Source of the DNA: Myxococcaceae bacterium | GTDB lineage: Bacteria; Myxococcota; Myxococcia; Myxococcales; Myxococcaceae | Length of the DNA stretch: 64,000 bases | Reading direction: 5' to 3' | NCBI GenBank assembly: GCA_016793095.1 | Contig: JAEUJQ010000045.1 | Span: forward strand, 62,001 to 126,000 | Shown here: positions 32,557 to 48,329 of the stretch, one piece after another | Numbering within the stretch: the stretch's first letter is position 1 | Layout: each line of letters begins with the position of its first letter | Notes under the pieces: model-generated | Databases searched by the model: none | Seen by the model: only the letters and a program-made list of their open reading frames with translations | Told to the model about the DNA's origin: nothing | Translations under genes and position numbers: made by a program

Positions 32557-33825
32557 TCAGAGCGCCTCGACCACCATCGCGATGCCCTGGCCGCCGCCGA
32601 TGCACGCCGACGCGACGCCGTAGCGCCCGCCGCGGGCCTTGAGCGCCTTGAGCAGCGTCGTCACCAGCCGCGTGCCCGTCGCGCCCAGCGGGTGGCCGAT
32701 CGCGATCGCGCCGCCGTGGACGTTCAGCTTCGCCTGATCGAGCTCGAGCGTCTTCGCCACCGACAGCGCCTGCGCGCCGAAGGCCTCGTTGATCTCGAAG
32801 AGATCGATGTCCTTGAGCGACAGCTTCGCGGCCTTGAGCACGCTCCTGATGGCGGGCACCGGGCCGAAGCCCATGATCCGCGGCTGGCAGCCGACCGAGG
32901 CGATCGCCTTCACCTTGCCCAGCGGCTTCTGCCCGCTCTTCTGCACGTACCCCTCGCCGGCGATCAGCACCGCGCACGCGCCGTCGACGATGCCCGAGGC
33001 CGAGCCCGCCGTCGTGGGCCCGTCCTTCGAGAAGACGAACGGCAGCTTCGCGAGCTTCTCGAGCGTGGTGCGCCGCGGGTGCTCGTCCTGGGCGAGCGTG
33101 TCGACGCCCTGCAGCTTCACGCGCCTCGCCTTCAGCTCGGGCGCCTCGTGCATGCCGTTGGACACGGGCACGATCTCGCCCGCGAAGAAGCCGGCCTCGA
33201 GCGCCTTCGCGTACCGCTCCTGGCTCTGGAACGCGAAGCGATCGACCTCGTCACGCGTCACGCCGACCTCGGCCGCGAGGTTGTCGGCGGTGACGCCCAT
33301 GGGCACCGCGGCGGTGTCGTCGAGCGAGGCCCACAGCATGTCGACGAAGTCGGGCTTGCCCAGCGGGAAGCCCTGGCGCGCGCCGAACGAGGCCAGCGGG
33401 AAGCGGCTCATCGTCTCGGTGCCGGTGCCCAGCACGAGGTTCGCCTTGCCGAGGCCGATCTGCTCGGCCGCGACGCCGATCACCTCGATGCCAGAGCCAC
33501 AGATGCGCTGCACCATGAGCGCGGGCACGTTCAGCGGCACGCCCGAGTACAGCCCGATGTGCCGCGGCAGGAACAGGCAGTCGGCGCTCGCCTGGCCGAT
33601 GTTCGAGACGATCACCTGATCGACGTCGGTGGGCTTCGCCTTCACCGCCTCGAGCACCGCCTTCGACGCCGAGATGCCCAGATCGGTCGGCGACACCGAC
33701 GAGAGCGCCCCGCAGAACTTGCCGAACGGGGTGCGCTTGCCCTCGAGCACGTAGACGCCGTCGAAGACCGCGCCGGTCCCCTGTTCGCTGCTGACGAAAC
33801 CGCTGACTGACGAGCCGTTGGGCAT
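32557..33825 (-). CDS. thiolase (acetyl-CoA C-acyltransferase family)
   Basis: A 422-residue thiolase. The nucleophilic Cys109 lies in QRICGSGIEVIG. The C-terminal catalytic motifs are GHPLGATGTRL and CIGGGQGIAMV. In this operon it probably performs thiolytic cleavage of a 3-oxoacyl-CoA in the lower, beta-oxidation-like part of the pathway (for example 3-oxopimeloyl- or acetoacetyl-CoA). An unusual Ser/Gly-rich 20-residue N-terminus precedes the domain (start of fold near GVYVLEGKRTPFG). It lies 39 nt after the ketopantoate-reductase-like gene and 1 nt before hcrC. Confidence 0.9.
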   Translation of the reverse strand: MPNGSSVSGFVSSEQGTGAVFDGVYVLEGKRTPFGKFCGALSSVSPTDLGISASKAVLEAVKAKPTDVDQVIVSNIGQASADCLFLPRHIGLYSGVPLNVPALMVQRICGSGIEVIGVAAEQIGLGKANLVLGTGTETMSRFPLASFGARQGFPLGKPDFVDMLWASLDDTAAVPMGVTADNLAAEVGVTRDEVDRFAFQSQERYAKALEAGFFAGEIVPVSNGMHEAPELKARRVKLQGVDTLAQDEHPRRTTLEKLAKLPFVFSKDGPTTAGSASGIVDGACAVLIAGEGYVQKSGQKPLGKVKAIASVGCQPRIMGFGPVPAIRSVLKAAKLSLKDIDLFEINEAFGAQALSVAKTLELDQAKLNVHGGAIAIGHPLGATGTRLVTTLLKALKARGGRYGVASACIGGGQGIAMVVEAL

Positions 33826-33864: not shown

Positions 33865-34836
33865 CTAGGGGTCGCTGCTCCGCATGCCGTCGGCGACGTA
33901 GCGGTTCAGCACGACGGCCTTCTCGAGGTTCTTCGTGAGGTAATAGAGGGTCTGGATCACCGGCACGTCGATGTTGAAGCGCTGCGCCAGCTTGAAGATC
34001 GCGCCCGCGTGGAACTCGTTCTCGGTGTTCCGCTGGGCCTCGATGTCCACCAGCATCGACGGCTTGTGATCGCCGCCCTTGCGCAGGTACGCGAGCGCGG
34101 CCTCCTGGTACGAGCGATCGAGCGTGGGGAACTTGAGCGCCTCGGCGACGAGCAGGCTCTCGCGCACGATCTCGGTCACCATGCGCTCGATCTCGGGGTC
34201 GGCCATGGCCTGCCGCATCGTCAGGCGAGTGAGCGCGCAGGCGGTGCTCAGCGCGGTGTTGAGAATGGCCTTCCGGTAGACGTCCTCGCGGTACTCGCGC
34301 CGCACCTCGAAGTCGAAGCCGGCCGCCACGAACTCGGCGGCGATCGTCTTGTCGAGCCCGCCGGCCTCGAGGTTCTCGGACAGGATGTGATGGAAGCAGA
34401 ACTCGACCCACACCTCGTTCACCTTCACGAAGTTGCAGCCGAGGTTGAGCACCGCGCGCAGCGTGCGCCGGCGGCCGAAGACGTCGGCGACGATGTCTTC
34501 CACGTCGATGCCGTTCTGGCAGCACACGAAGACGGCGTTCTCGGCCACGCCCATCGCCTTCATCTGCCGCACGAGATCGCGCGACTGGCTGGCCTTCACG
34601 CAGATGAGGATGACGTCGGGCTTCTCGTGCAGGAACTCGTCGAGGTGCGTGACGATCGACGTGGGCATCCACTCGCCCTGCAGCTTCCCGTTCACCTTGA
34701 GCCCGTTGCGCTTGAAGTGCTCGGCCCGCGTCGGGTTGCGGCAGAGCACCGACACCTGGTGCCCCGCCTTGCCCAGCATCACCGCGAACGTCGTGCCGAC
34801 GGGCCCCAGGCCGATGACGCCGTAGTGCAGGCTCAT
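33865..34836 (-). CDS. ketopantoate-reductase-like (PanE/ApbA family) oxidoreductase
   Basis: A 323-residue protein starting at the ATG at 34836, overlapping the ligase stop by 4 nt. The Rossmann N-terminus has GVIGLGPVGTTFAVML for NADP binding, followed by ILICVKASQ and the CQNG motif. The C-terminal ApbA helical domain has RKAILNTALSTACALTR and FHAGAIFKLAQRFN. PanE reduces 2-dehydropantoate in CoA biosynthesis. Inside an aromatic-CoA operon, either CoA supply or reduction of a different keto acid is possible; the sequence does not decide. Confidence 0.85.
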   Translation of the reverse strand: MSLHYGVIGLGPVGTTFAVMLGKAGHQVSVLCRNPTRAEHFKRNGLKVNGKLQGEWMPTSIVTHLDEFLHEKPDVILICVKASQSRDLVRQMKAMGVAENAVFVCCQNGIDVEDIVADVFGRRRTLRAVLNLGCNFVKVNEVWVEFCFHHILSENLEAGGLDKTIAAEFVAAGFDFEVRREYREDVYRKAILNTALSTACALTRLTMRQAMADPEIERMVTEIVRESLLVAEALKFPTLDRSYQEAALAYLRKGGDHKPSMLVDIEAQRNTENEFHAGAIFKLAQRFNIDVPVIQTLYYLTKNLEKAVVLNRYVADGMRSSDP

Positions 34837-36569
34837 TTCTTCTCCTTCGCGGGCGCGCCCTCGCGCAGGTCGATCAGCTCTGCGTCGTCGGGCAACTCGG
34901 TCTCGCCCTTCTCGAGCAGCCGCATGTACTCGCCGAAGCGCGTCTCGATGCTGCGCGGAATGACCTTGAACGACGGGGTGAGCTCCTGCCGATCGACGGA
35001 CAGCTCGCGATCGATGATCAGCGCGCGCGAGACCCGGTTGATCTTCGTGCCGGTGCGCTTGTTCATGCAGTCGATGCACTCGGTGAGGCAGGCGCGCAGG
35101 TGCTCCACCGAGCGCGGGCGCTCGCAGTTCGCGTCCTCGGCGCGCACCGTGCTGGACCCGAGCAGCTCGTTGTTCGGGAAGAGCAGCGCCAGCGGCGCGT
35201 CCTGTCCGCTGCCGAAGATGTAGGCGTGCTTCACGTACCGGCACGTCGCCGCGAGGCTGTCTTCGATCGGCGTGGGGAAGACCTTCTCGCCGTTGCCCAG
35301 CTTGAAGATGCGATCCTTGCGCGAGACGATCTTGAGCCCGCCCGCCGTCACCTCGCCGACGTCGCCCGTCTTGAACCAGCCGTCGTCGAACGCCGCCGCC
35401 GTGAGATCTGGCCGGTCGAAGTAGCCGCGCATGATGTTCGGGCCCTTCACGAGGATCTCGCCGTCGTCGGCGATCTTCACGGTCACCCCGGGGATCGGCT
35501 GGCCCACCACGCCCGGCTGCCGCTCGAGCGACATCGACGTCAGCGTGCAGCACGGCGAGGTCTCGGTGAGCCCCCACCCCTCGAGCACCGGAACGCCGCG
35601 CGCCTTGAACACGTCCGACACGTTGAGCGGCAGGGGCGCCGCCGCGGTGAAGACGAAGCGCAGCTCGGGGTGGAAGAAGGCCTGCTCGTGCTCAGGCGAG
35701 CTGAGGATGCGGCTCATCAGCTCGGCGTAGATCTTCGGCACGCTGAAGAAGACGTGTGGCCGCACCGCGCGCACGTTCTCGAGCATGAGCTCGATGTTGC
35801 GCCCGCCGGAGTCGTCGAGGGTGATCGAGCCGCCCGTCGACAGCGCGAAGAAGCGCTCGAAGAGGCCGCCGAAGCTGTGGTGCCACGGCAGGTACGAGAG
35901 CAGCCGCATGCCCGCGGTCGGCTTCCACAGCGCCCGCAGCGCCGCCTGCTGCGACAAGATGTTCCCGTGCGTGAGCATCACGCCCTTGGGGAAGTTCGTC
36001 GTGCCCGAGGTGAACATGATCACCGCGAGATCGTCGGCGCGGCTCTCGGTGGCGAAGCGCTCGAGCGCGGCGTCGCCGTCACGGTCGCCGATCACCTCGG
36101 CCCAGGTGCTCGCGCCGGGCGCCTGGCCGTTCAGCACCACCACGCACGCCGGCCGCACGTCCTCGGGGAGGCTGGCGAGGCGCGCCGGCGTGTCGACCAC
36201 CAGGGCGCTCACCCTCGAGAACGTGAGCAGCTGCGCGACGAAGTCGGCCGGGTAGCCGGGGAAGATCGGCACGCTCGTGCGGCCCGACGCCATGATCCCC
36301 AGCTCGACGACGAGGCGCTCGGCCGAGTTCCCGCACCACACGGCCACCCGCTCCTGCCGTCCGATGCCCCGGGCCTCGAAGAAGGCCCCGGCAGCGCCCA
36401 CGTGCCCGACGAAGCGCCCCCACGCCATGGGCTCGAACGACCCGCCCGCGCCGCGCTGGGACACCGCCGGCGCCGCGCGATCGAAGGTGCTCGCCTCGCG
36501 CAGCATCGCCGCGAGGTTCACGGTCACCGCCGGCAGGGAGGCCTCGGCCTCGAGCAGTCGCGCGCTCAC
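34833..36569 (-). CDS. AMP-forming acyl-CoA synthetase
   Basis: A 578-residue member of the adenylate-forming ligase family. The P-loop-like motif is MFTSGTTNFPKGVML. Downstream are GWGLTETSPC and FKTGDVGEV, and the hinge KDRIFKLGNGEKV. The general layout, with a long C-terminal part, is nearer to long-chain acyl-CoA synthetases than to benzoate-CoA ligases. In context it probably activates an aromatic or related carboxylic acid such as 4-hydroxybenzoate, but substrate cannot be read from the sequence. It follows bzdQ by 6 nt. Confidence 0.88.
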   Translation of the reverse strand: MSARLLEAEASLPAVTVNLAAMLREASTFDRAAPAVSQRGAGGSFEPMAWGRFVGHVGAAGAFFEARGIGRQERVAVWCGNSAERLVVELGIMASGRTSVPIFPGYPADFVAQLLTFSRVSALVVDTPARLASLPEDVRPACVVVLNGQAPGASTWAEVIGDRDGDAALERFATESRADDLAVIMFTSGTTNFPKGVMLTHGNILSQQAALRALWKPTAGMRLLSYLPWHHSFGGLFERFFALSTGGSITLDDSGGRNIELMLENVRAVRPHVFFSVPKIYAELMSRILSSPEHEQAFFHPELRFVFTAAAPLPLNVSDVFKARGVPVLEGWGLTETSPCCTLTSMSLERQPGVVGQPIPGVTVKIADDGEILVKGPNIMRGYFDRPDLTAAAFDDGWFKTGDVGEVTAGGLKIVSRKDRIFKLGNGEKVFPTPIEDSLAATCRYVKHAYIFGSGQDAPLALLFPNNELLGSSTVRAEDANCERPRSVEHLRACLTECIDCMNKRTGTKINRVSRALIIDRELSVDRQELTPSFKVIPRSIETRFGEYMRLLEKGETELPDDAELIDLREGAPAKEKK

Positions 36570-36575
36570 GGTCGT

Positions 36576-37397
36576 TCAGTTCCTGGCCAGCCGCACGTGG
36601 CGGTAGCCGCCCCAGATGCCGCAGCCGATCGCCCCCGCCATCGGCGAGAGCTCGTGGTTCACCACCTCGACGTTGCCGCCCGTCATGTTCTCCTTGATGG
36701 CCGCGACCAGCCCCACGTCGAGCCCGAGCCCGCCCGTCACCAGGATGCGCCCCTGCGCCTTCACCAGCCGCAGCAGGTTGACGAGCCGCTTGGCCATCGA
36801 CACGTGAATGCCCTTCAAGATGTTCCGGGTGGCGATGCCGCGGCTCACCATGTTGATCACGTCGGTCTCGGCGAGCACCGCGCAGATGCCCGACACGGCG
36901 GTCGGCTCGTCGGCCTCGAGCGACAGCTTGCCGACGTCTTCGATGGTGATGCCGAGGTAGCGCGAGATGTTCTCGATGAACTGCCCCGAGCCCGACGCGC
37001 ACTGCGACGTCATGCGGTAGCCGAGCACCTTCGAGCGCTCGTCCATGATGAGCGCCTTCGCGTGCAGCGCGCCCACGTCCACCACGGCGCGCGCGCCCGG
37101 GTCGATGAAGAGGGCGCCGCGGGCGTGCGAGGTCATCGAGTAGAAGTGCCCACGCCGGAACTCGACCAGCTCGCCGTCGCCGGTCGTCGCCACGTACGCG
37201 ATCTGATCGGGCGCGAGCTTGTTGCGGGCCAGCACGCGCTCCCAGGCCCCCTCGATCACCGCCTTCGGATCTCGCTTGCGCAGCTTCGACAGCTCGGTGT
37301 CGACGAGCCGCGGCTTCGAGACGTCCCCACTGAACTCGAGCAGCGCCACCTTGACCGAGCTGTTCCCCGCGTCGATGCCTGCCGTGTAGAAGTTCAT
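36576..37397 (-). CDS. bzdQ: class I benzoyl-CoA reductase subunit Q (ATPase, BcrD/BadG type)
   Basis: A 273-residue ASKHA-fold ATPase of the BadF/BadG/BcrA/BcrD family. It has the phosphate-1 loop GIDAGNSSVKVALL, a second loop VVDVGALHAKAL, and cysteines Cys133 (SQCASGSGQF) and Cys172 (SGICAVLAE), which with subunit P bind one bridging 4Fe-4S cluster. ATP hydrolysis here drives low-potential electrons to the N/O subunits for ring reduction of benzoyl-CoA. The start overlaps the bzdP stop by 4 nt. The order N-O-P-Q matches bzdNOPQ and bcrCBAD of denitrifiers. Confidence 0.9.
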   Translation of the reverse strand: MNFYTAGIDAGNSSVKVALLEFSGDVSKPRLVDTELSKLRKRDPKAVIEGAWERVLARNKLAPDQIAYVATTGDGELVEFRRGHFYSMTSHARGALFIDPGARAVVDVGALHAKALIMDERSKVLGYRMTSQCASGSGQFIENISRYLGITIEDVGKLSLEADEPTAVSGICAVLAETDVINMVSRGIATRNILKGIHVSMAKRLVNLLRLVKAQGRILVTGGLGLDVGLVAAIKENMTGGNVEVVNHELSPMAGAIGCGIWGGYRHVRLARN

Positions 37398-38767
37398 CGC
37401 TGCTCCTGGGCGGTCGGCTTCACCGGCTTCTGCAGCGCCTTGAGATCGACGCCGATGAGATCGCCCTTGCGGTCGCGCTTGGCGAACAGGGCGGCCCCGA
37501 TGGCGCCGGTGAAGATGCTGTCGGGGCTGATGTTGATCGTCATCTCGCCGTAGTTCTCGGCGATCAGCTTGCGGAGCGCGTCGGTGGCGGCCTGGTTCTT
37601 CGCGACACCGCCGGTGAAGGTGAACTCGCTCACCACGCCGCCGCTGCGGGCGAGCAGCGACATCGCGCGCAAGATGATGGCGCGGTGCAGGCCGGCCAGC
37701 ATGTCTTCCCGGCGCTCGCCGAGGGCCAGCCGCTCACGCAGCTCGGCGCCGGCGAACACGGTGCAGGTCGAGTTGATCTTCACCTGCTTGCGCGACTTCA
37801 TCGCGAGCGGCCCCAGCTCGTGCAGGCCCACGTTCATCTCGTCGGCGATGTAGCCGAGGTAGCGGCCGCACCCGGCGGCGCAGCGATCGTTCATCTGGAA
37901 GTTGGTGACGATGCCGTTCTCGTCGACCTGGATCGCCTTCGTGTCCTGGCCGCCGATGTCGAGCACCGTGCGCGTCTTCGGGAACATGAAGTGGGCGCCC
38001 AGCCCGTGGCAGAGGATCTCGGAGCGGATCTGCTCCTTCGGGAACGGCAGGCGCTGGCGGCCGTAGCCGGTGCCGATGGTGTTCAGCACCCGGAACTCGA
38101 TGGCGATCGTGTTCGCCACCGCGCGCGTGATCGCCTCGCCGTGCGCCTCGAACTCGGGCATGCGCCGCACGGCGTCGGCCGCGAAGCGAATGTAGTCGGC
38201 GAACGCGTTCGTGTAGCTCTTCGCCTCGACCTGCAGGATCGACTTGTCGTAGGTGCCGATGAGCCGATCGAGCAGCTTCGCGTCGTCGCCGGCCTTCTTC
38301 TCGGCGAGGTGCAGGAACGAGCTCGCCGCCACGTCGCGGAAGAAGTCGCTGCGCGCCACCGCGCCGGGCGTGAAGAGCCCCACGGCCTCGCGCTCCATCT
38401 CCGTGAGGATCTGATCGAGCACCGCGTGCGTCGGCGGCCGGTGCGCCGCGTTGGGCAGCAGATCGACGGCCTTCCGGCACGCCTGCGCGAGCGCCTCGAG
38501 CTGCCGGCTGTGCTGCGCCAGGCGGTACTTCTGGAACAGCCACGCGATCAGCTGCTCGTGGCCGTCGCCCGCCACCTGCGAGCGCAGCTCACGCCGGAGG
38601 ATCGCGAAGCGCGAGTTGATCTCGGCCTCCTCGCGGGCGATCTGACAGGCGATGTCGTAGTCGCTGCGAGAGTTGGTGATGCCGAAGCCGAGCAGCTTCT
38701 CGTGCTCGTCGAGGAAGACGGCCTTCGTGGTGGTCGATCCGAGATCGATGCCGACGTACGCGTCCAT
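37394..38767 (-). CDS. bzdP: class I benzoyl-CoA reductase subunit P (ATPase, BcrA/BadF type)
   Basis: A 457-residue ATPase of the same family as subunit Q but with a large insert (about 50-240). It has GIDLGSTTTKAVFLD at the N-terminus, VLDIGGQDTKAI, and the cluster cysteines Cys296 (DRCAAGCGRYL) and Cys335 (NSTCTVFAGAE). FTFTGGVAKNQ marks the adenosine site. The length and insert match the long subunit BzdP/BcrA. It follows bzdO by 3 nt and overlaps bzdQ by 4 nt. Confidence 0.92.
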   Translation of the reverse strand: MDAYVGIDLGSTTTKAVFLDEHEKLLGFGITNSRSDYDIACQIAREEAEINSRFAILRRELRSQVAGDGHEQLIAWLFQKYRLAQHSRQLEALAQACRKAVDLLPNAAHRPPTHAVLDQILTEMEREAVGLFTPGAVARSDFFRDVAASSFLHLAEKKAGDDAKLLDRLIGTYDKSILQVEAKSYTNAFADYIRFAADAVRRMPEFEAHGEAITRAVANTIAIEFRVLNTIGTGYGRQRLPFPKEQIRSEILCHGLGAHFMFPKTRTVLDIGGQDTKAIQVDENGIVTNFQMNDRCAAGCGRYLGYIADEMNVGLHELGPLAMKSRKQVKINSTCTVFAGAELRERLALGERREDMLAGLHRAIILRAMSLLARSGGVVSEFTFTGGVAKNQAATDALRKLIAENYGEMTINISPDSIFTGAIGAALFAKRDRKGDLIGVDLKALQKPVKPTAQEQR

Positions 38768-38770
38768 GGC

Positions 38771-40039
38771 TCAGCTCCTCGCCTCGAGCATCTGGAAGTA
38801 CGACTCGAGCCGGTTCTTGATGTTGGCGGCGCTGAAGTAGCGCGGGTCGACGAGATCGGACTCGATGAAGCCGCCGGCGCGCCCGGTGCGCTTCTCGATC
38901 TCCTTCATCATCAGCAGCTGGCCGGCCGAGAACGAGTTGCAGCTCTTGATCGAGTTGACGACGAAGCCGTCGGCCTGAAAGTCCTCGATCTGCTTCGCGA
39001 TCAGGTCGACGCGGCTCGGCAGGTTGCGGTTCGTGTAACAGCCCATGCAGTAGTCGGCGAGGCTCTCTAGCGGGTGCTCGGGGTCGTGCCGGAAGCCCTG
39101 CTCGTAGAGGCCCCCCACGCGCGTGTACGTCGAGCTCACGCAGACCGCGCCCTCGGCGTAGAACATCTCCCAGAACTCCCGGAAGCTCGTCCAGTTCGGC
39201 GGGCCCTCGACGACGAGCCGGTACTTCTCCTGGTGCACCTTGCCGTCCGGCGTGACGGGCCCGAGGCCCTGCTTCGCGCGCTGCTCCACCTCGGCGCGCA
39301 GCGTGCGGTAGTAGCTCTCGCACTCCTTCGTGCCGCGGAACGCCGTGAAGATCGGGCCGATGTAATAGACGCCGCCGAAGTACGCGTCGATCGGCGACGG
39401 CTTCTGCTTCGCCGCGTCCCACACGGCGACGAGATCGTCTTCGGACCGCGCCGACGAGGCGAGCATCGCGCGCAGCTTGTCCTCGTCGTACTTCTTGCCC
39501 GAGATCTCCTCGAGCTTCGGGATCACGACCTCCTTGAGCTGCTTCACCACGTACTTGCGCATCTCGGGCGTGATGCGCCCGTCGGCCTGGTAGGGCACGT
39601 GCAGCATCACCACCGGGCAGTTGTATTCCTGCTTCAGCAGCTCGAACCACTTCATGAAGGTGAAGCAGCCCGTGTAGCTGAGCAGCAGCAGCGACGGCTC
39701 GGGCAGGCGCTGGCCGGTGGGGCCGATGTTGCCCTTGCGCATCATGCCGATGTCGCTCTTCACGTACGTGCACACGTCCTCGGAGTGGCCCGCCTTCTCG
39801 GCCTCGAGCACGTAGTCGCCGCTCTGCTTCCGCATGGCCGACTGCAGCGCGTTGATCTCGGGGTGCACCGGCAGCAGATCGAACGCCCAGATCAGCTCGT
39901 TCAGGTTGCCGGGCACGAACGTGTAGACGGCCTTCTCGCCCGTCTTCGCCGTGTTCGCGAGCCGATCGAAGTGGCCCGCGATCATCTTCTTCTGCAACAG
40001 CATGCTGTCTTCTTTGATCGCGTCAGGTCGTGCGGTCAT
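38771..40039 (-). CDS. bzdO: class I benzoyl-CoA reductase subunit O (BcrB/BadE type)
   Basis: A 422-residue subunit of the 2-hydroxyacyl-CoA dehydratase D-component family that forms the substrate and cluster-binding module with subunit N. Typical parts are PVHPEINALQ, SEDVCTYVKSDIGMM, LLLSYTGCFTFMKW and the C-terminal NSIKSCNSFSAGQLLM. Conserved Cys residues in those segments are expected to ligate a 4Fe-4S cluster. It carries no ATPase motif. It overlaps bzdN by 4 nt. Confidence 0.92.
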   Translation of the reverse strand: MTARPDAIKEDSMLLQKKMIAGHFDRLANTAKTGEKAVYTFVPGNLNELIWAFDLLPVHPEINALQSAMRKQSGDYVLEAEKAGHSEDVCTYVKSDIGMMRKGNIGPTGQRLPEPSLLLLSYTGCFTFMKWFELLKQEYNCPVVMLHVPYQADGRITPEMRKYVVKQLKEVVIPKLEEISGKKYDEDKLRAMLASSARSEDDLVAVWDAAKQKPSPIDAYFGGVYYIGPIFTAFRGTKECESYYRTLRAEVEQRAKQGLGPVTPDGKVHQEKYRLVVEGPPNWTSFREFWEMFYAEGAVCVSSTYTRVGGLYEQGFRHDPEHPLESLADYCMGCYTNRNLPSRVDLIAKQIEDFQADGFVVNSIKSCNSFSAGQLLMMKEIEKRTGRAGGFIESDLVDPRYFSAANIKNRLESYFQMLEARS

Positions 40040-41202
40040 GCGGCTCCCCAGAGCTTGATCGAGTCGGCGAAGGTGCCCGTCTGTTCCTTGAAGACGTGGT
40101 ACTGGCTGGTGTTCTCGGCGTAGTTGAACGAGGTGTGCGGCACGCCGGCCTTGTTGAGCGCCTCGACGAGCATCGGCCGCTCGAGCAGCGCCGGGTCGCA
40201 GAAGCTGGGCGCGCAGAACACGACGCCCTCGGCGCCGTACTTCTTGACGCTGTCGATGAGGAACGCGCCCTTCTTGCGCCGCGGCTCGTAGCGCGAGGCC
40301 GTCTCGACGGTGTCGCCGAGGTAGGCGTTGGCGAGCTCGGTGAGCGGATCGTCGCCGAGCTTCACGTCGCCCAGCAGGTAGCGCGCGCCCAGCACCCAGT
40401 CGTCGTCCACCACGTAGCAGCCGCTCGCCTCGAGGGCGCGGATGAGGGCGATGGGCGGCTGCTCGCAGAAGGCGCCGGTCACCACCACGCGCGCGTTGTC
40501 GAGCGGCTTGCGGTCACGCTTCGCCGCCGCGGCGAGGTAGCGCTCGACGAGCGCGGTGTGCTCCTCGACGGGCAGCACGTTCGAGGCGCGCATGACGAGG
40601 TACAGCTCGTAGGTGGGCACCTTCTCGGGCGTCTTCGCGCGCGTGTCGTACAGCTTCGCGATGACGCGCCGGTTCTCGTTGTAGAGCGCGATCGACTGCC
40701 GCAGCCGCTCGGGCGTCACCGTCACCTTCGACAGCGCGCTGAGCTGCTGCAAGAGCCCCTCGAGCTCGTGCCGGTAGAAGGCGCCGCCGATGCCCGCGGT
40801 GAACTCCTGGGGGAAGTCGAGGTAGCGGACCAGCTTGTCCTTGAAGAGCATCTGCCACATGCCGCTCAGGTTGCGGATCACGTCGCAGATCGCGGGGAAC
40901 AGCATGCCGTCGAGGCAGTCGAGGCGGCCCGTCACGCCAAGCTCGATGGTCGAGCGCGGGATGTGACAGATGTACGACTGGAAGTACGCGTCGCCCTTGA
41001 TGATCTCGAGGTTCTCGCCGCCGCCCATGATGCCCACCGGCAGCATGCCCGCCGCGTGGATCAGCTCGCGCGGCGCGTACACCGGCATGAAGCCCACGGC
41101 GCGGCCGCCAGTGCGCTCCTTCCACTGCTTCACGGCGGTGAAGCTCAGGTCCTCGTAGAGGACGCGGCACTGCTCGACGATCTCGGTGGTCGGGTCAGTC
41201 AT
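40036..41202 (-). CDS. bzdN: class I benzoyl-CoA reductase subunit N (BcrC/BadD type)
   Basis: A 388-residue member of the 2-hydroxyacyl-CoA dehydratase family. It starts at the ATG at 41202, inside the last codons of the TetR gene (8-nt overlap). Family features are GFMPVYAPRELIHAAGMLPVG, SYICHIPRST, LDGMLFPAICDVIRNLSG and VVTGAFCEQPP. The order and sizes of the four subunits (388, 422, 457 and 273) match the Azoarcus-type BzdNOPQ enzyme. Together they reduce benzoyl-CoA to the cyclohexadiene at the cost of two ATP per electron pair, as known for the family, and are oxygen-sensitive. Confidence 0.92.
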   Translation of the reverse strand: MTDPTTEIVEQCRVLYEDLSFTAVKQWKERTGGRAVGFMPVYAPRELIHAAGMLPVGIMGGGENLEIIKGDAYFQSYICHIPRSTIELGVTGRLDCLDGMLFPAICDVIRNLSGMWQMLFKDKLVRYLDFPQEFTAGIGGAFYRHELEGLLQQLSALSKVTVTPERLRQSIALYNENRRVIAKLYDTRAKTPEKVPTYELYLVMRASNVLPVEEHTALVERYLAAAAKRDRKPLDNARVVVTGAFCEQPPIALIRALEASGCYVVDDDWVLGARYLLGDVKLGDDPLTELANAYLGDTVETASRYEPRRKKGAFLIDSVKKYGAEGVVFCAPSFCDPALLERPMLVEALNKAGVPHTSFNYAENTSQYHVFKEQTGTFADSIKLWGAA

Positions 41203-41878
41203 GGTGCTCCTTGCGCAGGCCAGAGACGAGCTTCCCCACCCGCTCGCGGCGATCGTCGATCTTCCGGCGCGCGCAGACGCCGTCGACGAAGGTGTGGAAG
41301 ATGTCGTCGGTGAGATCGCGGCCGGTGCCGTGCTTCTGCGGCGAGTACCAGCCGAAGATCCAGTTCATCATGCCGAACAGCAGGTACGTCGCGCGGGTCA
41401 GCCCCTTCGCGTCGGGCAGCTCGCCGCCCCGGTGGGCGATGAAGTCGCTCACCACCTGCCGGCACTGCTCGGTGTACCCGTCCTTGAGGCGGCGGATCTC
41501 GGCGATGCGCTCGAGCGTGAGGTTGTGCGTGCCGAGCATCAGCACCTTCATCTCGTCGCGGTGGTGCGAGAAGTAGTCGAGGTGGTTGAAGATCAGCGCG
41601 TAGAGCCGATCTTCGGGGTCGCTCAGGTGCGAGAGGATCGCCTCGAGGCTCTTCGTGAGCGCCGAGAAGCCGCGCACGTTGATCCAGTAGACGAGGTCCT
41701 CCTTCGTTTGGAAGTAGTGGTACAGCCCCGAGAGGCTGCGGCCCGTCTCGCTCGCGATGTCGCGCAGGCTGGTGCCGTGGTACCCGCGCTGGGCCATCAG
41801 CCGCGCCGAGTAGCGGAGGATCTCGTCGAGCCCCTCCTTGCCGGGCACGACCGCGCCGTTGCCGTTGCCGTGGCTCAC
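41195..41878 (-). CDS. TetR-family regulator, probable repressor of the aromatic operon
   Basis: A 227-residue regulator. The N-terminal helix-turn-helix (about 18-62) has YSARLMAQRGYHGTSLRDIA and GLYHYFQTKEDLV, the TetR signature. The C-terminal ligand-binding part is helical with MMNWIFGWYSP. It lies inside the operon, overlapping the hydratase gene before it and bzdN after it, so it would control its own expression. The nearby dyad at 43743-43760 is a natural operator. By analogy with PaaR-type TetR repressors, an aryl-CoA such as benzoyl-CoA could be the inducer; that is inference. It is not related to BzdR or BoxR. Confidence 0.9.
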   Translation of the reverse strand: MSHGNGNGAVVPGKEGLDEILRYSARLMAQRGYHGTSLRDIASETGRSLSGLYHYFQTKEDLVYWINVRGFSALTKSLEAILSHLSDPEDRLYALIFNHLDYFSHHRDEMKVLMLGTHNLTLERIAEIRRLKDGYTEQCRQVVSDFIAHRGGELPDAKGLTRATYLLFGMMNWIFGWYSPQKHGTGRDLTDDIFHTFVDGVCARRKIDDRRERVGKLVSGLRKEHHD

Positions 41879-42642
41879 GCGTTGCTCCAGGTGGGCCGGC
41901 GCTTCTCGATGAAGGCCTTGATGCCCTCGTTCGCGTCCTTCGTCGCCATCAGCTCGACGAGGTACTGGTGCTCGAGCTCGCCGATCAGCTCGCGGTAGCG
42001 CTTCACGAGGCCGAGCCGCGCCGCCCGGTTCGCCTGCCGCAGGGCCGCCGCGCTCTGCGGGAGGATGTGCTTCTCGAGGAAGCCGGCGACGACCTCGGCC
42101 AGCTTGCCCTTCGGAGCGACCTCGTTGGCGAGCCCCAGCCGCGAGAGCTCCGCCGCGTCGCAGGCGCGCCCGGTGAGCACGAGCTCGGCCGCCCGCGCCC
42201 CGGGAATGAGCGCACCCAGCAGCGCCGCCGCCACCGGCGGGAAGACGCCCAGCTTCACCTCGGGCACCCCCATCGAGACGGTCTCGTCGACCATCACCAG
42301 CGAGCAGGCCATCGCCACCTCGAAGCCGCCGCCGAAGCAGCGCCCCGAGACGCGGGCGAGGGTCGGCACCGGCAGCTCGAGGATGGTGCCGATCAGCTGG
42401 TGGAACTTCGGCAGCATCGCGTTCACCGCGGGCGCCTGGTGCTCCTCGACGCTCGCGCCGTAGGAGAAGTGATCGCCCTTCCCGCTCAGGATGATCAGCT
42501 TCACGCCCGGGCGCGCGGCCGCCTCGCGTAGCGCCGCGTCGAGGGCGACGATCACCCGCTCCGACACGATGTTCGCGGGAGGCGTGGCGATCAGCAGCTC
42601 GATCACCTGGCCGTTCATCAGCTCGTTTCGCTCGAGATCCAT
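41875..42642 (-). CDS. bzdW: cyclohexa-1,5-diene-1-carbonyl-CoA hydratase
   Basis: A 255-residue crotonase-family protein; the ATG at 42642 gives the family length (about 255-260). GDHFSYGASVEEH and RCFGGGFEVAMACS form the oxyanion-hole regions, and MGVPEVKLGVFPP follows. FSYGASVEEHQ is, from memory, typical of dienoyl-CoA hydratases (Dch/BzdW/BadK-like) and not of general enoyl-CoA hydratases. It adds water to the product of benzoyl-CoA reductase to give 6-hydroxycyclohex-1-ene-1-carbonyl-CoA. It is 11 nt after the dehydrogenase and overlaps the TetR gene by 4 nt. Confidence 0.9.
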   Translation of the reverse strand: MDLERNELMNGQVIELLIATPPANIVSERVIVALDAALREAAARPGVKLIILSGKGDHFSYGASVEEHQAPAVNAMLPKFHQLIGTILELPVPTLARVSGRCFGGGFEVAMACSLVMVDETVSMGVPEVKLGVFPPVAAALLGALIPGARAAELVLTGRACDAAELSRLGLANEVAPKGKLAEVVAGFLEKHILPQSAAALRQANRAARLGLVKRYRELIGELEHQYLVELMATKDANEGIKAFIEKRRPTWSNA

Positions 42643-42653
42643 CGCTCGCTCCT

Positions 42654-43709
42654 TCAGGGCGTGAAGATGACGCGCTTCTTCAGGCTGTGGTGCTGCGCCG
42701 CCGTGAAGACCTCGTTGATCGTCGCCAGCGGCCGGTACTCGACGTTCGCGAGCAGCTCGACGCGGTCGGCGATCACGTCCTTCACCACGTCGTCGTAGTA
42801 CTGCGGGCGGCAGCCCCAGTTGCCGAAGCACTCGGCGTCGAAGGCCATCAGGTTCGACAGCCGCAGGTCGAGCTTGTCCATCGTGAAGCCGACGATGGCG
42901 AGCGTGCCGGCGTACGAGAGCAGGTTGTACGCGGTCTCCTGCCCGCCCTTCGTGCCGCTCATCTCAAACACGCGCCACTGGTACGCGGGCAGCTTGTTGT
43001 CCTTCACGAGCGCGCGGAGCTTCTGCTTCAGCTCCTTCTGATCGAGCCCCTTCGTGTTGAGCGTGAAGCGCGCGCCCTGGGCCTTCGCGAGCTCGAGGCG
43101 GCCCTCGTCGACGTCGAGCGCGATCACCGTCGCGCCGACGTTCTTCGCGTGCTGCACCATGTAGATGCCGACGCCGCCGACGCCCACGACGATGGCCAGC
43201 TCGCCCGCCTTGAGCCCGCTGCGCTTGAGCGACTGGTACGGCGTGGTGATCGCGTCGGCGACGACCGAGAGATCCGACACCTTGTGGCGCCCCAGCTCAA
43301 CCGGCAGCACGCAGAGGAAGCGGCCCGGCACGAGGATGTGCGTCGCGAAGCCGCCATCGAAGTCGTTGCCCGGCATCTTCTGGTGCTGGCAGATGTTCTC
43401 GCGCCCGGCGCGGCAGAGCTCGCACTCGCCGCAGGGCAGCACCGCCGGCACGATCACCTGCTTGCCGACGAGGTGCTGCGAGGCGGGCCCGGCGGCGATC
43501 ACCTTGCCGCTCACCTCGTGCCCGAGGATCAGCGGCGCGCCCTTCTTCGTCTGCACGCCCTCGAAGAAGGTGAGGTCGGTGTGGCAGAGCCCACAGCCCG
43601 CGATCTCGATCACCGCGTCAGCGCCCTGCGGCGGCGCGATGGTGAACGCGCGCCTCTCGAGGGGCTTGCCGACCTGCGTGAAGAACCACCCAGAGGCCTC
43701 GATGCTCAT
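42654..43709 (-). CDS. bzdX: 6-hydroxycyclohex-1-ene-1-carbonyl-CoA dehydrogenase
   Basis: A 351-residue zinc-type alcohol dehydrogenase. The start at 43709 has GGAGA 6 nt upstream. The catalytic zinc site is GCGLCHTD and GHE, and the structural zinc lobe has four cysteines in CGECELCRAGRENIC. The Rossmann motif is VVGVGGVGIYMV. The C-terminal part, with GNWGCRPQYYDDVV, fits Had/BzdX enzymes that oxidise the 6-hydroxy product to 6-oxocyclohex-1-ene-1-carbonyl-CoA with NAD. It is the first gene of the 13-gene operon. Confidence 0.9.
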   Translation of the reverse strand: MSIEASGWFFTQVGKPLERRAFTIAPPQGADAVIEIAGCGLCHTDLTFFEGVQTKKGAPLILGHEVSGKVIAAGPASQHLVGKQVIVPAVLPCGECELCRAGRENICQHQKMPGNDFDGGFATHILVPGRFLCVLPVELGRHKVSDLSVVADAITTPYQSLKRSGLKAGELAIVVGVGGVGIYMVQHAKNVGATVIALDVDEGRLELAKAQGARFTLNTKGLDQKELKQKLRALVKDNKLPAYQWRVFEMSGTKGGQETAYNLLSYAGTLAIVGFTMDKLDLRLSNLMAFDAECFGNWGCRPQYYDDVVKDVIADRVELLANVEYRPLATINEVFTAAQHHSLKKRVIFTP

Positions 43710-43742: not shown

Positions 43743-43760
43743 CCCGAACGTTCGTTCGGG
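43743..43760. promoter_or_regulatory. TetR-type operator dyad (CCCGAACGTTCGTTCGGG)
   Basis: An 8-2-8 perfect inverted repeat lies 33 nt upstream of bzdX and about 120 nt upstream of the divergent dehydratase-like gene. Its core, 43745-43758, fits CNAACGNNCGTTNG, the consensus I recall for the TetR-family phenylacetate repressor PaaR. On the minus strand it sits just downstream of a weak promoter-like pair (TTTACA at 43791-43786, TACTCC at 43767-43762). A repressor bound here could shut off bzdX onwards, and possibly the divergent pair. Confidence 0.7.
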
Positions 43761-43878: not shown

Positions 43879-45096
43879 GTGGGCGAGATTCGAGCGACGA
43901 ACGAGCTGAAGCGGATCTTGAAGGACGCCTTCCAGGGCTTCTTCCCGAAGGAAGGCCCGGCGCCGAAGGTGGCCTGGTGCACCAGCGTCGGCCCGGCCGA
44001 GCTGCTGATCGCGATGGGCTTCAAGGTCTACTACCCCGAGAACCACGGCGCGCTCCTCGGGGCCACGCGGCTCGCGAACGAGTACATGGGCGCGGCGAAC
44101 GCGCTCGGCTACTCCCCCGACATCTGCTCGTACCTCACGGCCGACGTGGGCGCGTTCCTGCAGCACCAGACGCCGCTCACGAAGGCCTACGGCATTCCCG
44201 GCGTCCCGAAGCCCGACGTGCTCGTCTACAACACGAACCAGTGCCGCGAGGTGCAGGACTGGTTCATGTTCTACGCGCGCCACTTCAAGGTGCCCGCCTT
44301 CGGCGTCATCTCGCCGAACATGGTGAACGAGCTCGAGCCCTCGCAGATCGACTACTGCGCGGCGCAGCTGAAGGACCTCTCCTTCGCGCTGGGGAAGATC
44401 GCGGGCGCCACGCTCGATCACGACCGGCTCGCCGAGGTGGTCGAGCTGTCGCGACAGACCTCGGTGCTGTGGGGCGAGTTCCTCGACTTTGGCCGGCACA
44501 AGCCCGCGCCGATGACGTTCTTCGACGGCTGCATTCAGATGGCGCCCGCGGTGGTGCTGCGCGGCACGAAGCCCGCCGTGGACTACTACCGGCTCCTCAA
44601 CGACGAGCTGCGCGCCCACGTCGCGCGGAACGACGCCGCGGTGAAGGGCGAGACGGTGCGCCTGTACTGGGAGGGCATGCCGCTGTGGGGCAAGCTGCGC
44701 TACTTCTCCGAGACGCTCGGGGGCATGGGCGCGAACGCGGTCGCCTCGACGTACTGCAACTCGTGGGTGTTCGACGACTTCGACGCGAAGGACCCCTTCC
44801 GCTCGATGGCGCGCGCGTACACCGAGATCTTCATCAACCGCAGCGAGGCCAAGAAGGAAGAGCTGATGAAGGCGATGCTCGAGCGCTTCGAGATCGACGG
44901 CGTCATCTACCACGACGCCAAGACGTGCCCGCACAACTCGAACTCGCGCTTCGGCATGCCCCAGCGCCTGTCGGCGGCCACCGGCATTCCCCACCTGGTG
45001 ATGAACGGCGACCTCTGCGATCTGCGCTGCTTCTCCGAGGAGCAGACCACCACCTCGCTCGAGGCCTTCGTCGAGCAGCTCAAGGAGCGCAACTGA
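43879..45096 (+). CDS. 2-hydroxyacyl-CoA dehydratase / benzoyl-CoA-reductase-like protein
   Basis: A 405-residue protein. I chose the GTG at 43879 because AGGAG lies 6 nt upstream. It belongs to the dehydratase D-component superfamily that includes HgdB, BcrB and double-cubane proteins. Cysteines lie at 34, 83, 122, 160, 218, 293, 350, 380 and 384; those in WCTS, DICSYL, NQC and AKTC are at the usual cluster-ligand places. There is no second dehydratase subunit beside it. The next gene, 2 nt on, encodes a matching activator ATPase. Possible roles are a second reductase, a dehydratase, or a double-cubane-type reductase. It is divergent from the aromatic operon. Confidence 0.85.
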   Translation: MGEIRATNELKRILKDAFQGFFPKEGPAPKVAWCTSVGPAELLIAMGFKVYYPENHGALLGATRLANEYMGAANALGYSPDICSYLTADVGAFLQHQTPLTKAYGIPGVPKPDVLVYNTNQCREVQDWFMFYARHFKVPAFGVISPNMVNELEPSQIDYCAAQLKDLSFALGKIAGATLDHDRLAEVVELSRQTSVLWGEFLDFGRHKPAPMTFFDGCIQMAPAVVLRGTKPAVDYYRLLNDELRAHVARNDAAVKGETVRLYWEGMPLWGKLRYFSETLGGMGANAVASTYCNSWVFDDFDAKDPFRSMARAYTEIFINRSEAKKEELMKAMLERFEIDGVIYHDAKTCPHNSNSRFGMPQRLSAATGIPHLVMNGDLCDLRCFSEEQTTTSLEAFVEQLKERN

Positions 45097-45098
45097 CG

Positions 45099-45899
45099 AT
45101 GGCGGACGCGACCCACTTCGCGGGCATCGACCTCGGCTCGGCCTTCACCAAGGCCGTGGTGATCACCGGCGACGGCGAGGTCGTGGGCCGCCACGTCGAG
45201 CGCACCGGCATCTCGTTCGAGACGAACGCCGACAAGGTGTTCGACGGCGCGCTGAACGAGGCCGGCCTCACCCGGGCGCAGGTGAAGGCCGTGGGCGCGA
45301 CCGGCGTGGGGCGGCGCAACTGCGCGTTCGCCACCGTGGTGAAGCCCGAGATCGGCTGCTTCGCGAAGGGCGTCTTCTTTCACCAGCGCGGCCTGTGCGT
45401 GGTGATCGACATCGGCGGACAGGACAACAAGATCATCCGCGTGACCGCGCAGGGCCAGCAGGACTTCTTCAAGATGAACCGCAAGTGCGCGGCGGGCACC
45501 GGCGCGTTCCTCGAAGAGATCTCGTTCAAGCTCGCGGTGCCGCAGCCCGAGATGAACGCGCGGGCGAGCCGGGCCACGAAGGTCGTCAGCATCGGCAGCT
45601 ACTGCACGGTGTTCTCGGCGACCGAGATCATCCACCACATCCGCGAGGGCCACGACGTCGACGCGATCTTCCGCGGCGTCTACGAGTCGGTGGTGAAGCG
45701 GGTGCTCGAGATGGCGCCGATCACCGACACGGCGGTGCTCGCCGGCGGCGCGATCGCGACCAACCCGGTGCTGGTGGACCTCTTCCGCGAGAAGCTCAAG
45801 GTGCCGGTGGTGGTGCCGCCGTCGCCGCAGACGCTCGGCGCCCTCGGCGCGGCCCTCTACGCCCGGGACGGCGCGGCGAGCGACGACACCGACGCCTGA
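45099..45899 (+). CDS. activator ATPase of the 2-hydroxyacyl-CoA dehydratase type (HgdC/BadF family)
   Basis: A 266-residue ASKHA-fold ATPase, the size of stand-alone archerase activators such as HgdC (about 260). It has GIDLGSAFTKAV, VVIDIGGQDNKII, and cluster cysteines Cys130 (RKCAAGTGAFLE) and Cys169 (GSYCTVFSATE). As a homodimer it would hold one 4Fe-4S cluster and pass ATP-driven electrons to the partner encoded 2 nt upstream. It differs clearly from the P and Q subunits on the other strand, so it is not a simple recent duplicate. Confidence 0.9.
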   Translation: MADATHFAGIDLGSAFTKAVVITGDGEVVGRHVERTGISFETNADKVFDGALNEAGLTRAQVKAVGATGVGRRNCAFATVVKPEIGCFAKGVFFHQRGLCVVIDIGGQDNKIIRVTAQGQQDFFKMNRKCAAGTGAFLEEISFKLAVPQPEMNARASRATKVVSIGSYCTVFSATEIIHHIREGHDVDAIFRGVYESVVKRVLEMAPITDTAVLAGGAIATNPVLVDLFREKLKVPVVVPPSPQTLGALGAALYARDGAASDDTDA

Positions 45900-45900
45900 G

Positions 45901-46310
45901 CTGCGAGCTCGGTCTCGGGGCCCGAACTCCGCCTCCGCGCGCGGCTCCAGCGCGGCGGACGAGCGACGCCTGTGCCGCGGGCTCCGTCTCGGGCCCGAAC
46001 TGCGGCCAGGTCGAGCGCATCGCGCCGGTCACTTACCAGGCCGTGGTCGACTCCGCCTCATGCGGCGCCCGCGCGGCCGGCGAGCGACGCCTGTGCCGCC
46101 AGCTCCGTCTCGGGCCCGAACTGCGGCCAGGTCGAGCCCATCGCGCCGGTCCAGTTGCCAGGCCGTGGTCGACTCCGCCTCATGCGGCGCCCGCACAGCC
46201 GGCGAGCGACGCCTGTGCCGCGAGCTCCGTCTCGGGCCCCGCGCGAGGCCGTGGTCGACTCCGCCTCCGTGCGGTGCCCGCGGCTGGCGAGCGCTGTGAC
46301 GAGCTGCCCA
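45901..46310. repeat. tandem repeat array, unit about 121 bp
   Basis: The segment starting GAGCGACGCCTGTGCCGC recurs at 45961, 46082 and 46204, giving units of 121 and 122 bp. The third unit lacks about 37 bp in the middle and is followed by a degenerate start of a fourth at 46289. A partial unit lies before 45961. The unit length is not a multiple of three, so each copy changes frame and a repeat protein is unlikely. The array fills the gap between two convergent genes. It includes GTCGAC and GCGCC-rich dyads but no clear terminator. Confidence 0.85.
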
Positions 46311-46347: not shown

Positions 46348-46788
46348 TCAGCGTGGCGGCGACTTCTCGGCCTCCTGCGCCAGCTGGGCGGCCAGCAGCG
46401 CGTGCAGGTCGTCCGGGAACTGCGTCGCGGTGAACGTCGAGGTGTCGATGCCCGCCTGCTTCAGCACGATGACGGCGCAGCGCTCGTCGGTCTCGCCCCG
46501 GTAGAAGGTGAAGCGCGAGGTGACGGAGCGCTTCGAGATCGTCAGCACCTCCATCACGATGCGCGCGGTGTCGCCCAGGCGCAGCGGCGCGAAGAAGTTC
46601 GCCTCGCTGTGGACGATGGGGAAGCCGAGCCGGCGCGTCGCCAGCACCTCTCCGTAGGGGATCTTCGCGTGGTCGTTGAAGAAGTCCTCGAAGGTGCGGT
46701 GGGCGAAGTCGAAGAAGCGCGCGAAGTAGACGACGCGCGCCCAGTCGATGTCCGCGAAGCGCACCAGGTGACGTGCGGTGAAGGCCAT
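46348..46788 (-). CDS. 4-hydroxybenzoyl-CoA-thioesterase-family (hotdog) thioesterase
   Basis: A 146-residue hotdog-fold protein with the 4HBT signature RFADIDWARVVYFARFFDF near the N-terminus; Asp14 is the expected catalytic residue. It would hydrolyse an acyl- or aroyl-CoA to the free acid. Next to an aromatic-CoA operon, a role in releasing CoA from stalled aromatic thioesters is plausible, but the family also includes general YbgC-type thioesterases. It lies downstream of the repeat array and transcribes toward it. Confidence 0.88.
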   Translation of the reverse strand: MAFTARHLVRFADIDWARVVYFARFFDFAHRTFEDFFNDHAKIPYGEVLATRRLGFPIVHSEANFFAPLRLGDTARIVMEVLTISKRSVTSRFTFYRGETDERCAVIVLKQAGIDTSTFTATQFPDDLHALLAAQLAQEAEKSPPR

Positions 46789-46892: not shown

Positions 46893-47744
46893 TCAACCGA
46901 GGTTGAAGACGCGCTTCGCGTTGTCGCGCAGCACCTTCTTCGCGGTGTCCTCGTCCATGCCCAGCTCGTCGAACTGCTGGTTGTAGCGCTCCCACGAGAG
47001 GCCGTTCGAGCCGAAGAGCACCTTCTCGCGGCCCGCGCGCGACTTCAGGTACTGCAGCAGCGCGGGGCTGATGTACTTCGGCAGCCACGCGGACAGCGAC
47101 ACGAAGACGTTCGGCCACTTCGTCGTCACCGCGATCATCTCGTCCACCCACGGCCAGCCGGTGTGCGTGCCGACGAGCTTGAGCTGCGGGAAGTCGCAGG
47201 CGATGCGATCGAGCTGAATCGGGCGGCCGTGCTCGCTGGGCATCGCCTCGAGCACGTGACCGACCTGCATCGACACCGTCACGCCGAGGCCCTCACACAT
47301 CGCGTAGAGCGGGTACATCTTCCGGTGATCGAGCGGGATGTCGTAGCCGTAGATGTGGAGGTAGACGCCCTTGAAACCTCTCTTCGTGACGTCCTCCTCG
47401 ACCTTCTTGAGGCCGGCGCGGATGTCGTTCGGATCGTAGTCGGCGAGGCCGTACACGCGGCCCGGGTACTTCTTCGACAGCGCGGTGATGTCCTCGGTGA
47501 GGTCGAGGGCGAAGCGCTTCTGGCGCCGGTACGACCACGCGAGGAGATCGGTCGCGAGCACGCACTCGACGTTCGCTGCGTCCATCGCCTTGATGAGCGC
47601 CTCGCCGTCGTCGTAGCCGTCGCCCCACGCGAGCTCGACCTTGCACTTGAGCTCGCCCGGCGAGTTTGTCGCCTCGACCCAGCTCTGCTTCCACTTCTTG
47701 AGGAGCAGCGGGAACAACGTGTCGACGCTCTTGATCTGGCTCAT
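46893..47744 (-). CDS. amidohydrolase-2-like protein with incomplete metal site
   Basis: A 283-residue TIM-barrel protein of the amidohydrolase_2/ACMSD-like group, starting at the ATG at 47744 with GAGG upstream. It has GVYLHIYGYDIP, KLVGTHTGWPWVDE and KVLFGSNGLSWE, and ends VLRDNAKRVFNLG, all typical for the group. However, the N-terminal HxH metal motif usually found in the first ten residues is absent; the sequence there is SVDTLFPLLLKKW. It may bind metal differently or be non-hydrolytic. Members decarboxylate or hydrolyse ring compounds, so a link with the aromatic cluster is possible. Confidence 0.8.
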   Translation of the reverse strand: MSQIKSVDTLFPLLLKKWKQSWVEATNSPGELKCKVELAWGDGYDDGEALIKAMDAANVECVLATDLLAWSYRRQKRFALDLTEDITALSKKYPGRVYGLADYDPNDIRAGLKKVEEDVTKRGFKGVYLHIYGYDIPLDHRKMYPLYAMCEGLGVTVSMQVGHVLEAMPSEHGRPIQLDRIACDFPQLKLVGTHTGWPWVDEMIAVTTKWPNVFVSLSAWLPKYISPALLQYLKSRAGREKVLFGSNGLSWERYNQQFDELGMDEDTAKKVLRDNAKRVFNLG

Positions 47745-48329
47745 GTGTGCCTCGGGCAGGAGAAAGTGGGGCGACGACAAAGCACCTGTGCCCGCGCGAG
47801 TCGACTCGACGAATGAAGCGAAGCTCACGCGGCGTGTGATTCCTGCTCACGCGAGGCCGATACTGGGACAGCGATGCCGGTGCGCGCCGCGGCCGTCAGG
47901 TCGCGTCGAGGGAGTTCATGCGGTAGGAGCACGCTGAGATGCGCAGCGACCTGCACTCGCTCACTCGCTGGCTGAAGTTGCTGGCCACCTGCCTGGCGGT
48001 GGGCTCGATGGTGAGCCTGCGCAGGTCGTCAGCCCCATCGGGACGGTGAGCGTCGCGCATGGCGGGCCTGGCAAGAAGCCCGTTCCGACCACCACCCGCG
48101 CCGAAGGCGTCGTTCGTCGCCTGGAGCCGAGCGCCGCCGTGCGCTCCTCTGTGGCGTGGCGCTTCGTTCAGGTCTGGCCCCCGAGAGAGCCCCTCCCGTC
48201 GGGCCCGCCTCGGTTCCTGCTGCATCGTGCGTTGCTGAACTGAGCGGCAACGCAGCAGCGCACTGCCTTCTCCAACCTCTCACCACTTCCGGCCGACTCC
48301 GTGCGGAGCGGCTCGTGCAGGAGCACGCC
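47745..48329. other. intergenic stretch without a supported gene
   Basis: About 585 bp between the amidohydrolase and the alpha/beta hydrolase starts. Short frames exist on both strands but none has a good start site and family-like sequence. A minus-strand frame ending at 47896 gives a plausible-looking C-terminal peptide (RQVASNFSQRVSECRSLR) and could be the remnant of a lost gene. Promoters for the two divergent genes must lie here; I cannot pin them down. Confidence 0.4.

Follow-up and report, generated by a model that had tools for sequence, protein, structure and literature searches.

To our knowledge, all characterised 2-hydroxyacyl-CoA dehydratases are α/β pairs. HadB pairs with HadC and is served by an HgdC-type activator, and phenyllactyl-CoA dehydratase (FldBC/FldI) is a two-subunit enzyme with the CoA-transferase FldA. 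Class I benzoyl-CoA reductases (BCR; BcrBC, BzdNO and MbdON) belong to the same superfamily and share its ATP-driven electron delivery, with two D subunits and two ATPases per system. The double-cubane cluster proteins (DCCP; 6eno, 7yyl) consist of one D protein and one activase. In BzdNO, the BzdO cluster is held by C95, C128 and C380, and the [8Fe-9S] cluster of BzdN by C36, C73, C100, C263, C293 and C327 (PMC11971306). In the scheme drawn from that work, α subunits lose the second sub-cluster, making room for substrate (PMC11971306). The window analysed here (the whole stretch of 64,000 nucleotides) contains a gene pair, SoloD and SoloAct, in which one D protein of the α type is accompanied by one activase.

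A two-gene unit divergent from a benzoyl-CoA operon

SoloD (43879–45096, + strand) is a single α-type HGD-D protein of 405 residues. Its GTG start codon is directly preceded by a GAGGAG motif, and 2 nt separate its stop codon from the ATG of SoloAct (45099–45899, + strand), an HgdC-type ATP-dependent activator of 266 residues. The initial annotation had proposed such a unit, and the open reading frames, Pfam and TIGR00241 agree on it. SoloD scores 212.1 bits against PF06050 HGD-D (gathering cut-off 28.4), and SoloAct scores 143 bits against the Pfam family BcrAD_BadFG (cut-off 31.5) and 198.5 bits against the NCBIfam acyl-CoA dehydratase activase model TIGR00241 (cut-off 125.4); scores above these cut-offs identify both as real genes rather than chance reading frames. 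Cys130 and Cys169 of SoloAct are present in 70/70 homologues and are likely the ligands of the cluster that bridges the activator dimer. Just past the activase gene lies a tandem repeat (45960–46239; 122-bp unit, 2.3 copies, 94% matches) that is unrelated to the gene pair as far as can be seen. The neighbouring genes on that side encode a hotdog thioesterase (4HBT_2; 46348–46788, − strand) and an amidohydrolase (Amidohydro_2; 46893–47756, − strand). A scan for sigma-70 promoters and terminators found none.

A class I benzoyl-CoA operon occupies the opposite strand, and 169 bp separate its Had gene from SoloD. Reading outward from SoloD, the operon comprises Had (42654–43709; TIGR03201, 454.8 bits, cut-off 338.65), a cyclohexa-1,5-diene-carbonyl-CoA hydratase-like gene (Dch, 41875–42711; best match TIGR03189, under its cut-off), a TetR-family regulator (41195–41878), the β-type D subunit of benzoyl-CoA reductase, BcrC (40036–41202; TIGR02263, over cut-off), the α-type D subunit BcrB (38771–40003; TIGR02260, over cut-off), the ATPase subunits BcrA (37394–38767; TIGR02259, 573 against a cut-off of 578) and BcrD (36576–37397; TIGR02261, over cut-off), and an AMP-dependent acyl-CoA synthetase as the acyl-CoA ligase (34833–36569), all on the − strand. 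Beyond the ligase, on the same strand, lie a PanE/ApbA-type 2-oxoacid reductase (33865–34839, start approximate), relatives of which adjoin SoloD/SoloAct in other genomes, and a thiolase (32557–33825) whose family is also found near SoloD in Geobacteraceae loci at 64–66% identity. The operon ends with 4-hydroxybenzoyl-CoA-reductase-like genes (28772–32555, − strand) in the order HcrC (32028–32555), HcrA (29752–32049) and HcrB (28772–29749), each named from its best NCBIfam match, below cut-off.

The divergent gap confirms that the two units share a control region. It contains a perfect inverted repeat, CCCGAACG-TT-CGTTCGGG (43743–43760; whole element CCCGAACGTTCGTTCGGG), which recurs identically and at the same site in L038, the nearest relative, amid flanking DNA that has diverged. 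The repeat pattern with up to 3 mismatches has a mean of 1.5 occurrences in shuffles of the window and is thus not rare by chance, so the case for an operator depends on the exactness of the match and on its conservation. On these grounds we infer that the repeat is a candidate operator for the TetR-type regulator of the operon.

Lineage and cysteine pattern of SoloD

SoloD had been likened in the initial annotation to the double-cubane (YjiM/YjiL-like) family, a membership that is rejected here. Against the family model NF040772 it scores 56.3 bits (cut-off 350), it lies on the α side of the tree, and its fold matches DCCP more weakly than HadB, the α subunit to which it is most similar. The highest NCBIfam score is to HadB α (NF052455, 215.1 bits, cut-off 750), followed by the BcrB (123 bits, cut-off 487) and BzdO (101 bits, cut-off 449) models; none of the equivalog cut-offs is reached. 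HadB is also the best PDB match, at 1.9e-47 for the single sequence and 7.6e-71 for a 51-sequence profile.

The AlphaFold2 model of SoloD (pLDDT 94.5, pTM 0.92) was compared with templates, as had been suggested, and is closest in fold to HadB (3o3m_A; Z 48.8, 1.9 Å over 392 residues), with BzdO (~45), MbdO (~42), DCCP (~33) and HadC (~32) following. In a tree with PDB references, whose sequences were taken from the search alignments, SoloD groups with a sister protein, D2, in a single clade (100/100) on the α side, which also holds BcrB, BzdO and MbdO. BcrC, HadC, BzdN, MbdN and DCCP lie on the opposite side, separated from the α lineage with 100/100 support. Owing to long reference branches, flagged by the tree program, the order of HadB, BzdO and MbdO on the α side is unsure. 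Sequence, tree and predicted fold all place SoloD as an α-type subunit of the HadB/BzdO lineage, and we classify it within the BCR/HAD family of radical enzymes as a variant outside DCCP, the HAD heterodimers and BCR.

The count of nine cysteines given previously is correct (residues 34, 83, 122, 160, 218, 293, 350, 380 and 384), but near-invariance across the family is limited to five of them, with a sixth, C384, common. Among 95 orthologues with 52–83% identity to SoloD, C83, C122 and C350 are present in 95/95, C34 and C293 in 94/95 each and C384 in 85/95, whereas Cys160, Cys218 and Cys380 are not conserved. C83, C122 and C350 occupy the three positions that ligate the cluster in HadB and BzdO. 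The residues around the open iron site are likewise those of HadB: E54 and V125 sit at its Glu and Val positions, and S36 matches both HadB and BzdO. SoloD thus has the three cysteines and the Glu54 and Ser36 equivalents of the α subunit of a heterodimeric (R)-2-hydroxyacyl-CoA dehydratase, but not its β partner. The acid/base His131 of BzdO is replaced by Val125; since BcrB and MbdO also lack this histidine, the predicted active site fits HadB yet remains compatible with ring reduction.

The three additional conserved cysteines set SoloD apart from HadB, which lacks Cys at positions equivalent to C34, C293 and C384. Related α-type proteins of Myxococcota, some with a β neighbour, also lack their equivalents. 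C293 aligns with the double-cubane ligand C263 of BzdN and with the corresponding DCCP cysteine past a strand of the C-terminal domain, and C34, like a DCCP cysteine, lies close to where the first strand ends. Exact alignment to double-cubane ligand positions is limited to C83, C122, C350 and C293. C34 is offset by one residue from BzdN C36, and the position of BzdN C293 has no Cys counterpart in SoloD; C384 would have to serve in its place as the sixth ligand, if there is one. In the SoloD model, C34, C122, C293, C350 and C384 are at or shortly past strand ends, with C83 at a helix start; the cluster cavity of BzdN lies in the same place. This correspondence makes a second cubane in SoloD plausible at the level of the model, with C384 or a non-Cys group as the sixth ligand.

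The extra cysteines favour multi-electron chemistry. SoloD may be an α-lineage homodimer that has regained the second sub-cluster, with a double-cubane-type centre next to the CoA-ester pocket, a possibility that we regard as real but doubtful. The published scheme has no such combination (PMC11971306). If it exists, anaerobic aromatic metabolism in bacteria and archaea would include a widespread step that has gone unrecognised. A different use of the same six cysteines, as a functional double-cubane protein that reduces small molecules like the Carboxydothermus DCCP and is placed here incidentally, appears improbable: the single D protein with its activase and a fold still clearly related to DCCP would suit it, but not the α lineage and the low NF040772 score, the retention of E54 and other α-type residues, or the steady linkage to benzoyl-CoA and acyl-CoA genes, which is unexpected for a general small-molecule reductase. 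The sister protein D2 (L029:11306–12571, − strand; L134:1471–2733, + strand) has its own activase and has lost all three canonical cluster cysteines.

Search for a partner subunit

The whole source genome encodes three HGD-D proteins: BcrB, BcrC and SoloD. No second D subunit flanks SoloD/SoloAct, and an HGD-D search of the genome yielded no β partner of the HadC/HgdB type, the only β-type D protein being BcrC. Among 19 other SoloD genomes searched, three drafts that may be incomplete (G199, G201 and G205) have SoloD as their sole HGD-D protein, and the three agree with one another. The earlier reading of one D subunit with its own activator is borne out in the source genome, and in these three genomes a partner is apparently not needed. 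The same annotation had named, as the outcome that would count against it, a firm grouping with a known 2-hydroxyacyl-CoA dehydratase combined with a partner elsewhere in the genome; the grouping is found loosely, with HadB α, and the partner is not.

Another contig of the source genome (G000, contig C43; L026:553–3660, + strand) encodes a large protein that combines two BcrAD-type ATPase stretches with a DUF2229 domain and is patchy in the genus. This activase-like protein was rejected as a partner, as it is present in a same-genus genome without SoloD (G001) and absent from five other SoloD genomes; it is missing from G199, G201 and G205. With SoloD alone in three draft genomes and the DUF2229 protein not a general partner, SoloD likely works as a homodimer.

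Alternatively, SoloD could be a second α subunit that pairs with the nearby BcrC and gives benzoyl-CoA reductase another substrate range. SoloD is α-type like BcrB, BcrC is the sole β-type D protein of the genome, and one control region serves both operons. The three genomes in which no other HGD-D protein was found, the dedicated activase and the extra cysteines missing from β-paired α subunits make this arrangement unlikely. Paralogy within one genome is suggested by Geobacter argillaceus (G195, L043), in which several HGD-D reading frames of about SoloD length (444, 427 and 498 residues) lie on different contigs.

Distribution, gene neighbours and proposed chemistry

A scan of GTDB genomes recovered at least 80 loci, mostly from metagenome bins. 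The best 80 include members of Myxococcota, Bdellovibrionota, Pseudomonadota, Geobacteraceae, Desulfarculaceae, Aminicenantes, Planctomycetota, Bacteroidota, Methylomirabilota, Asgard archaea and others, and an activase was recognised in 74 of them, mostly adjoining SoloD. The divergent layout of Bcr-TetR-Dch-(Oah)-Had and SoloD-SoloAct recurs in different phyla, completely at three loci (L039, L041 and L042) and partly at two (L038 and L040). Several Geobacteraceae loci have Had and Dch next to SoloD but no Bcr. The plasmid collection contained only distant relatives of SoloD (25–28% identity).

Had is present in 13/16 Myxococcota genomes with SoloD and in 20/179 without it (p = 4e-9, not corrected for kinship). 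As a control, genomes with other α-type proteins have Had in 14/26 cases, an odds ratio of 9 versus 34 for SoloD across the 195 Myxococcota genomes. The 19 other SoloD genomes searched all contain a Had match, which exceeds the cut-off in 16. This co-occurrence and the layout kept across phyla substantiate the proposed link to the aromatic pathway. Six genomes of the same genus have neither SoloD nor Had, and the cluster is accordingly patchy and probably mobile. A role tied to the class I reductase only was rejected, since G199, G201 and G205 lack BcrB and BcrC yet have Had and proteins of the AFOR family, whose AFOR_C domain is not specific to BamB.

The co-occurrence with the pathway, together with the loss of the three cluster cysteines from the related D2 in some Myxococcota, could also be accommodated if SoloD/SoloAct served as an accessory for re-activating or protecting benzoyl-CoA reductase, or were a diverged non-catalytic copy. 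We consider this very unlikely, because the catalytic and cluster residues of SoloD are strictly conserved across phyla, SoloD is present where the class I reductase is absent, and such an accessory is dispensable in the benzoate degrader Geobacter metallireducens, which has no catalytic D subunits (PMC1924859). For the same reason this well-studied organism would not have revealed the SoloD family. The open-access literature searched contained no characterised member, in keeping with the earlier statement that such a role was not known to be described, and nothing was found there on 3-hydroxybenzoyl-CoA dehydroxylation or on BadF-type ATPases with benzoate. The family is apparently uncharacterised. 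If our assignment is right, some ten bacterial and archaeal phyla carry a gene pair, linked to benzoyl-CoA metabolism with or without a class I reductase, that has so far been without a function, and the radical dehydratase/reductase family can run on one α-type subunit.

The genes that accompany SoloD bear on its substrate. An ADP-forming CoA ligase is directly downstream in 37 of the best 80 loci (median gap 11 bp), a PanE-type reductase is nearby in 28/80 (21/49 among loci longer than 15 kb), and IorA is found in 17/80. PanE adjoins SoloD or SoloAct directly in several unrelated lineages (L047, L064, L070, L087, L104 and the Lokiarchaeota loci) and in G050. Other frequent neighbours are acyl-CoA ligases, acyl-CoA dehydrogenase, enoyl-CoA hydratase and hydroxyacyl-CoA dehydrogenase, and the Geobacteraceae loci also contain IorAB and PaaK. 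The PanE family converts 2-oxo acids to (R)-2-hydroxy acids, and the PanE-type protein of the window matches PDB 3wfi, which we take to be D-mandelate dehydrogenase. PanE, a CoA ligase and an α-type dehydratase together make up the classical (R)-2-hydroxyacyl-CoA route. PanE-type, ligase and β-oxidation neighbours thus favour dehydratase-type chemistry over ring reduction. The difficult low-potential reduction envisaged in the initial annotation is possible, although the neighbourhoods point at least equally to dehydratase chemistry on 2-hydroxyacyl-CoA.

Our leading reading, which we hold tentatively and at less than even confidence, is that SoloD/SoloAct is an ATP-activated radical enzyme with a single α-type D protein, probably a homodimer, that carries out dehydratase-type chemistry on a CoA thioester in aromatic catabolism. 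From what is known of the family, SoloAct would hydrolyse ATP and drive a low-potential electron into the iron–sulphur centre of SoloD. A catalytic cubane on C83, C122 and C350 would handle the substrate with E54 and S36, as in HadB, and C34, C293 and usually C384, on the same face, may bind a second cubane that acts as the relay in place of the absent β subunit. The enzyme would most likely dehydrate, or reductively dehydroxylate, an (R)-2-hydroxyacyl-CoA, for example (R)-phenyllactyl-CoA or (R)-4-hydroxyphenyllactyl-CoA, which the PanE-type reductase and acyl-CoA ligases encoded nearby would supply. Gene context suggests that dehydration of the aryl-lactyl-CoA could give cinnamoyl-CoA or coumaroyl-CoA, which β-oxidation would convert to benzoyl-CoA or 4-hydroxybenzoyl-CoA; hydroxylated rings would then reach benzoyl-CoA through 4-hydroxybenzoyl-CoA reductase, and the window has a thiolase and Hcr-like genes. 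The proposed substrate class is that of FldBC/FldI, from which SoloD differs in having neither a second subunit nor the CoA-transferase FldA. A singular FldB-like gene (BzS1_13720, 30% identity) occurs in a sulphate reducer that degrades benzene and toluene (PMC13416013). If correct, this assignment would provide an added route, or a missing step, into the benzoyl-CoA pathway for aromatics such as aryl-lactates derived from amino acids. It would also offer a simple natural system, with one D protein and one activator, for ATP-driven low-potential catalysis and for the role of a second sub-cluster.

Several observations weigh against the leading reading. A dehydratase without a β subunit would be unprecedented, as the known enzymes are all α/β, and multi-electron storage, as in reductases, accounts for the extra cysteines better than the single catalytic electron that a dehydratase needs. 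SoloD also has no Cys at the ligand position of BzdN C293. Many SoloD loci have no PanE-type gene within range, and part of the PanE association reflects repeated counting of a single Geobacteraceae cluster. The linkage to benzoyl-CoA would suit other roles as well. These points leave some room, less than for the dehydratase, for an ATP-driven reductase of aryl-CoA or related compounds, a homodimer with a double-cubane-like centre per subunit that catalyses Birch-type reduction or reductive dehydroxylation of aromatics not taken by BcrABCD or the tungsten reductase. The six conserved cysteines, with C293 at the distal double-cubane ligand position, the dedicated activase and the occurrence of SoloD within benzoyl-CoA clusters, whether or not a class I reductase is present, would all be expected of such an enzyme, and the double cubane of BzdN stores electrons for ring reduction (PMC11971306). 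We nevertheless regard it as doubtful, because the closest characterised relative is a dehydratase α subunit, SoloD occurs in genomes that already have benzoyl-CoA reductase, the neighbouring genes suggest 2-oxo and 2-hydroxy acids, and the BzdO histidine is absent, although BcrB and MbdO show that this last point is not decisive. In G050, the unit has the order PanE-D2-Act2-D1-Act1, and similar D1/D2 tandems seem to occur in G096, G097, G101, G102 and G192.
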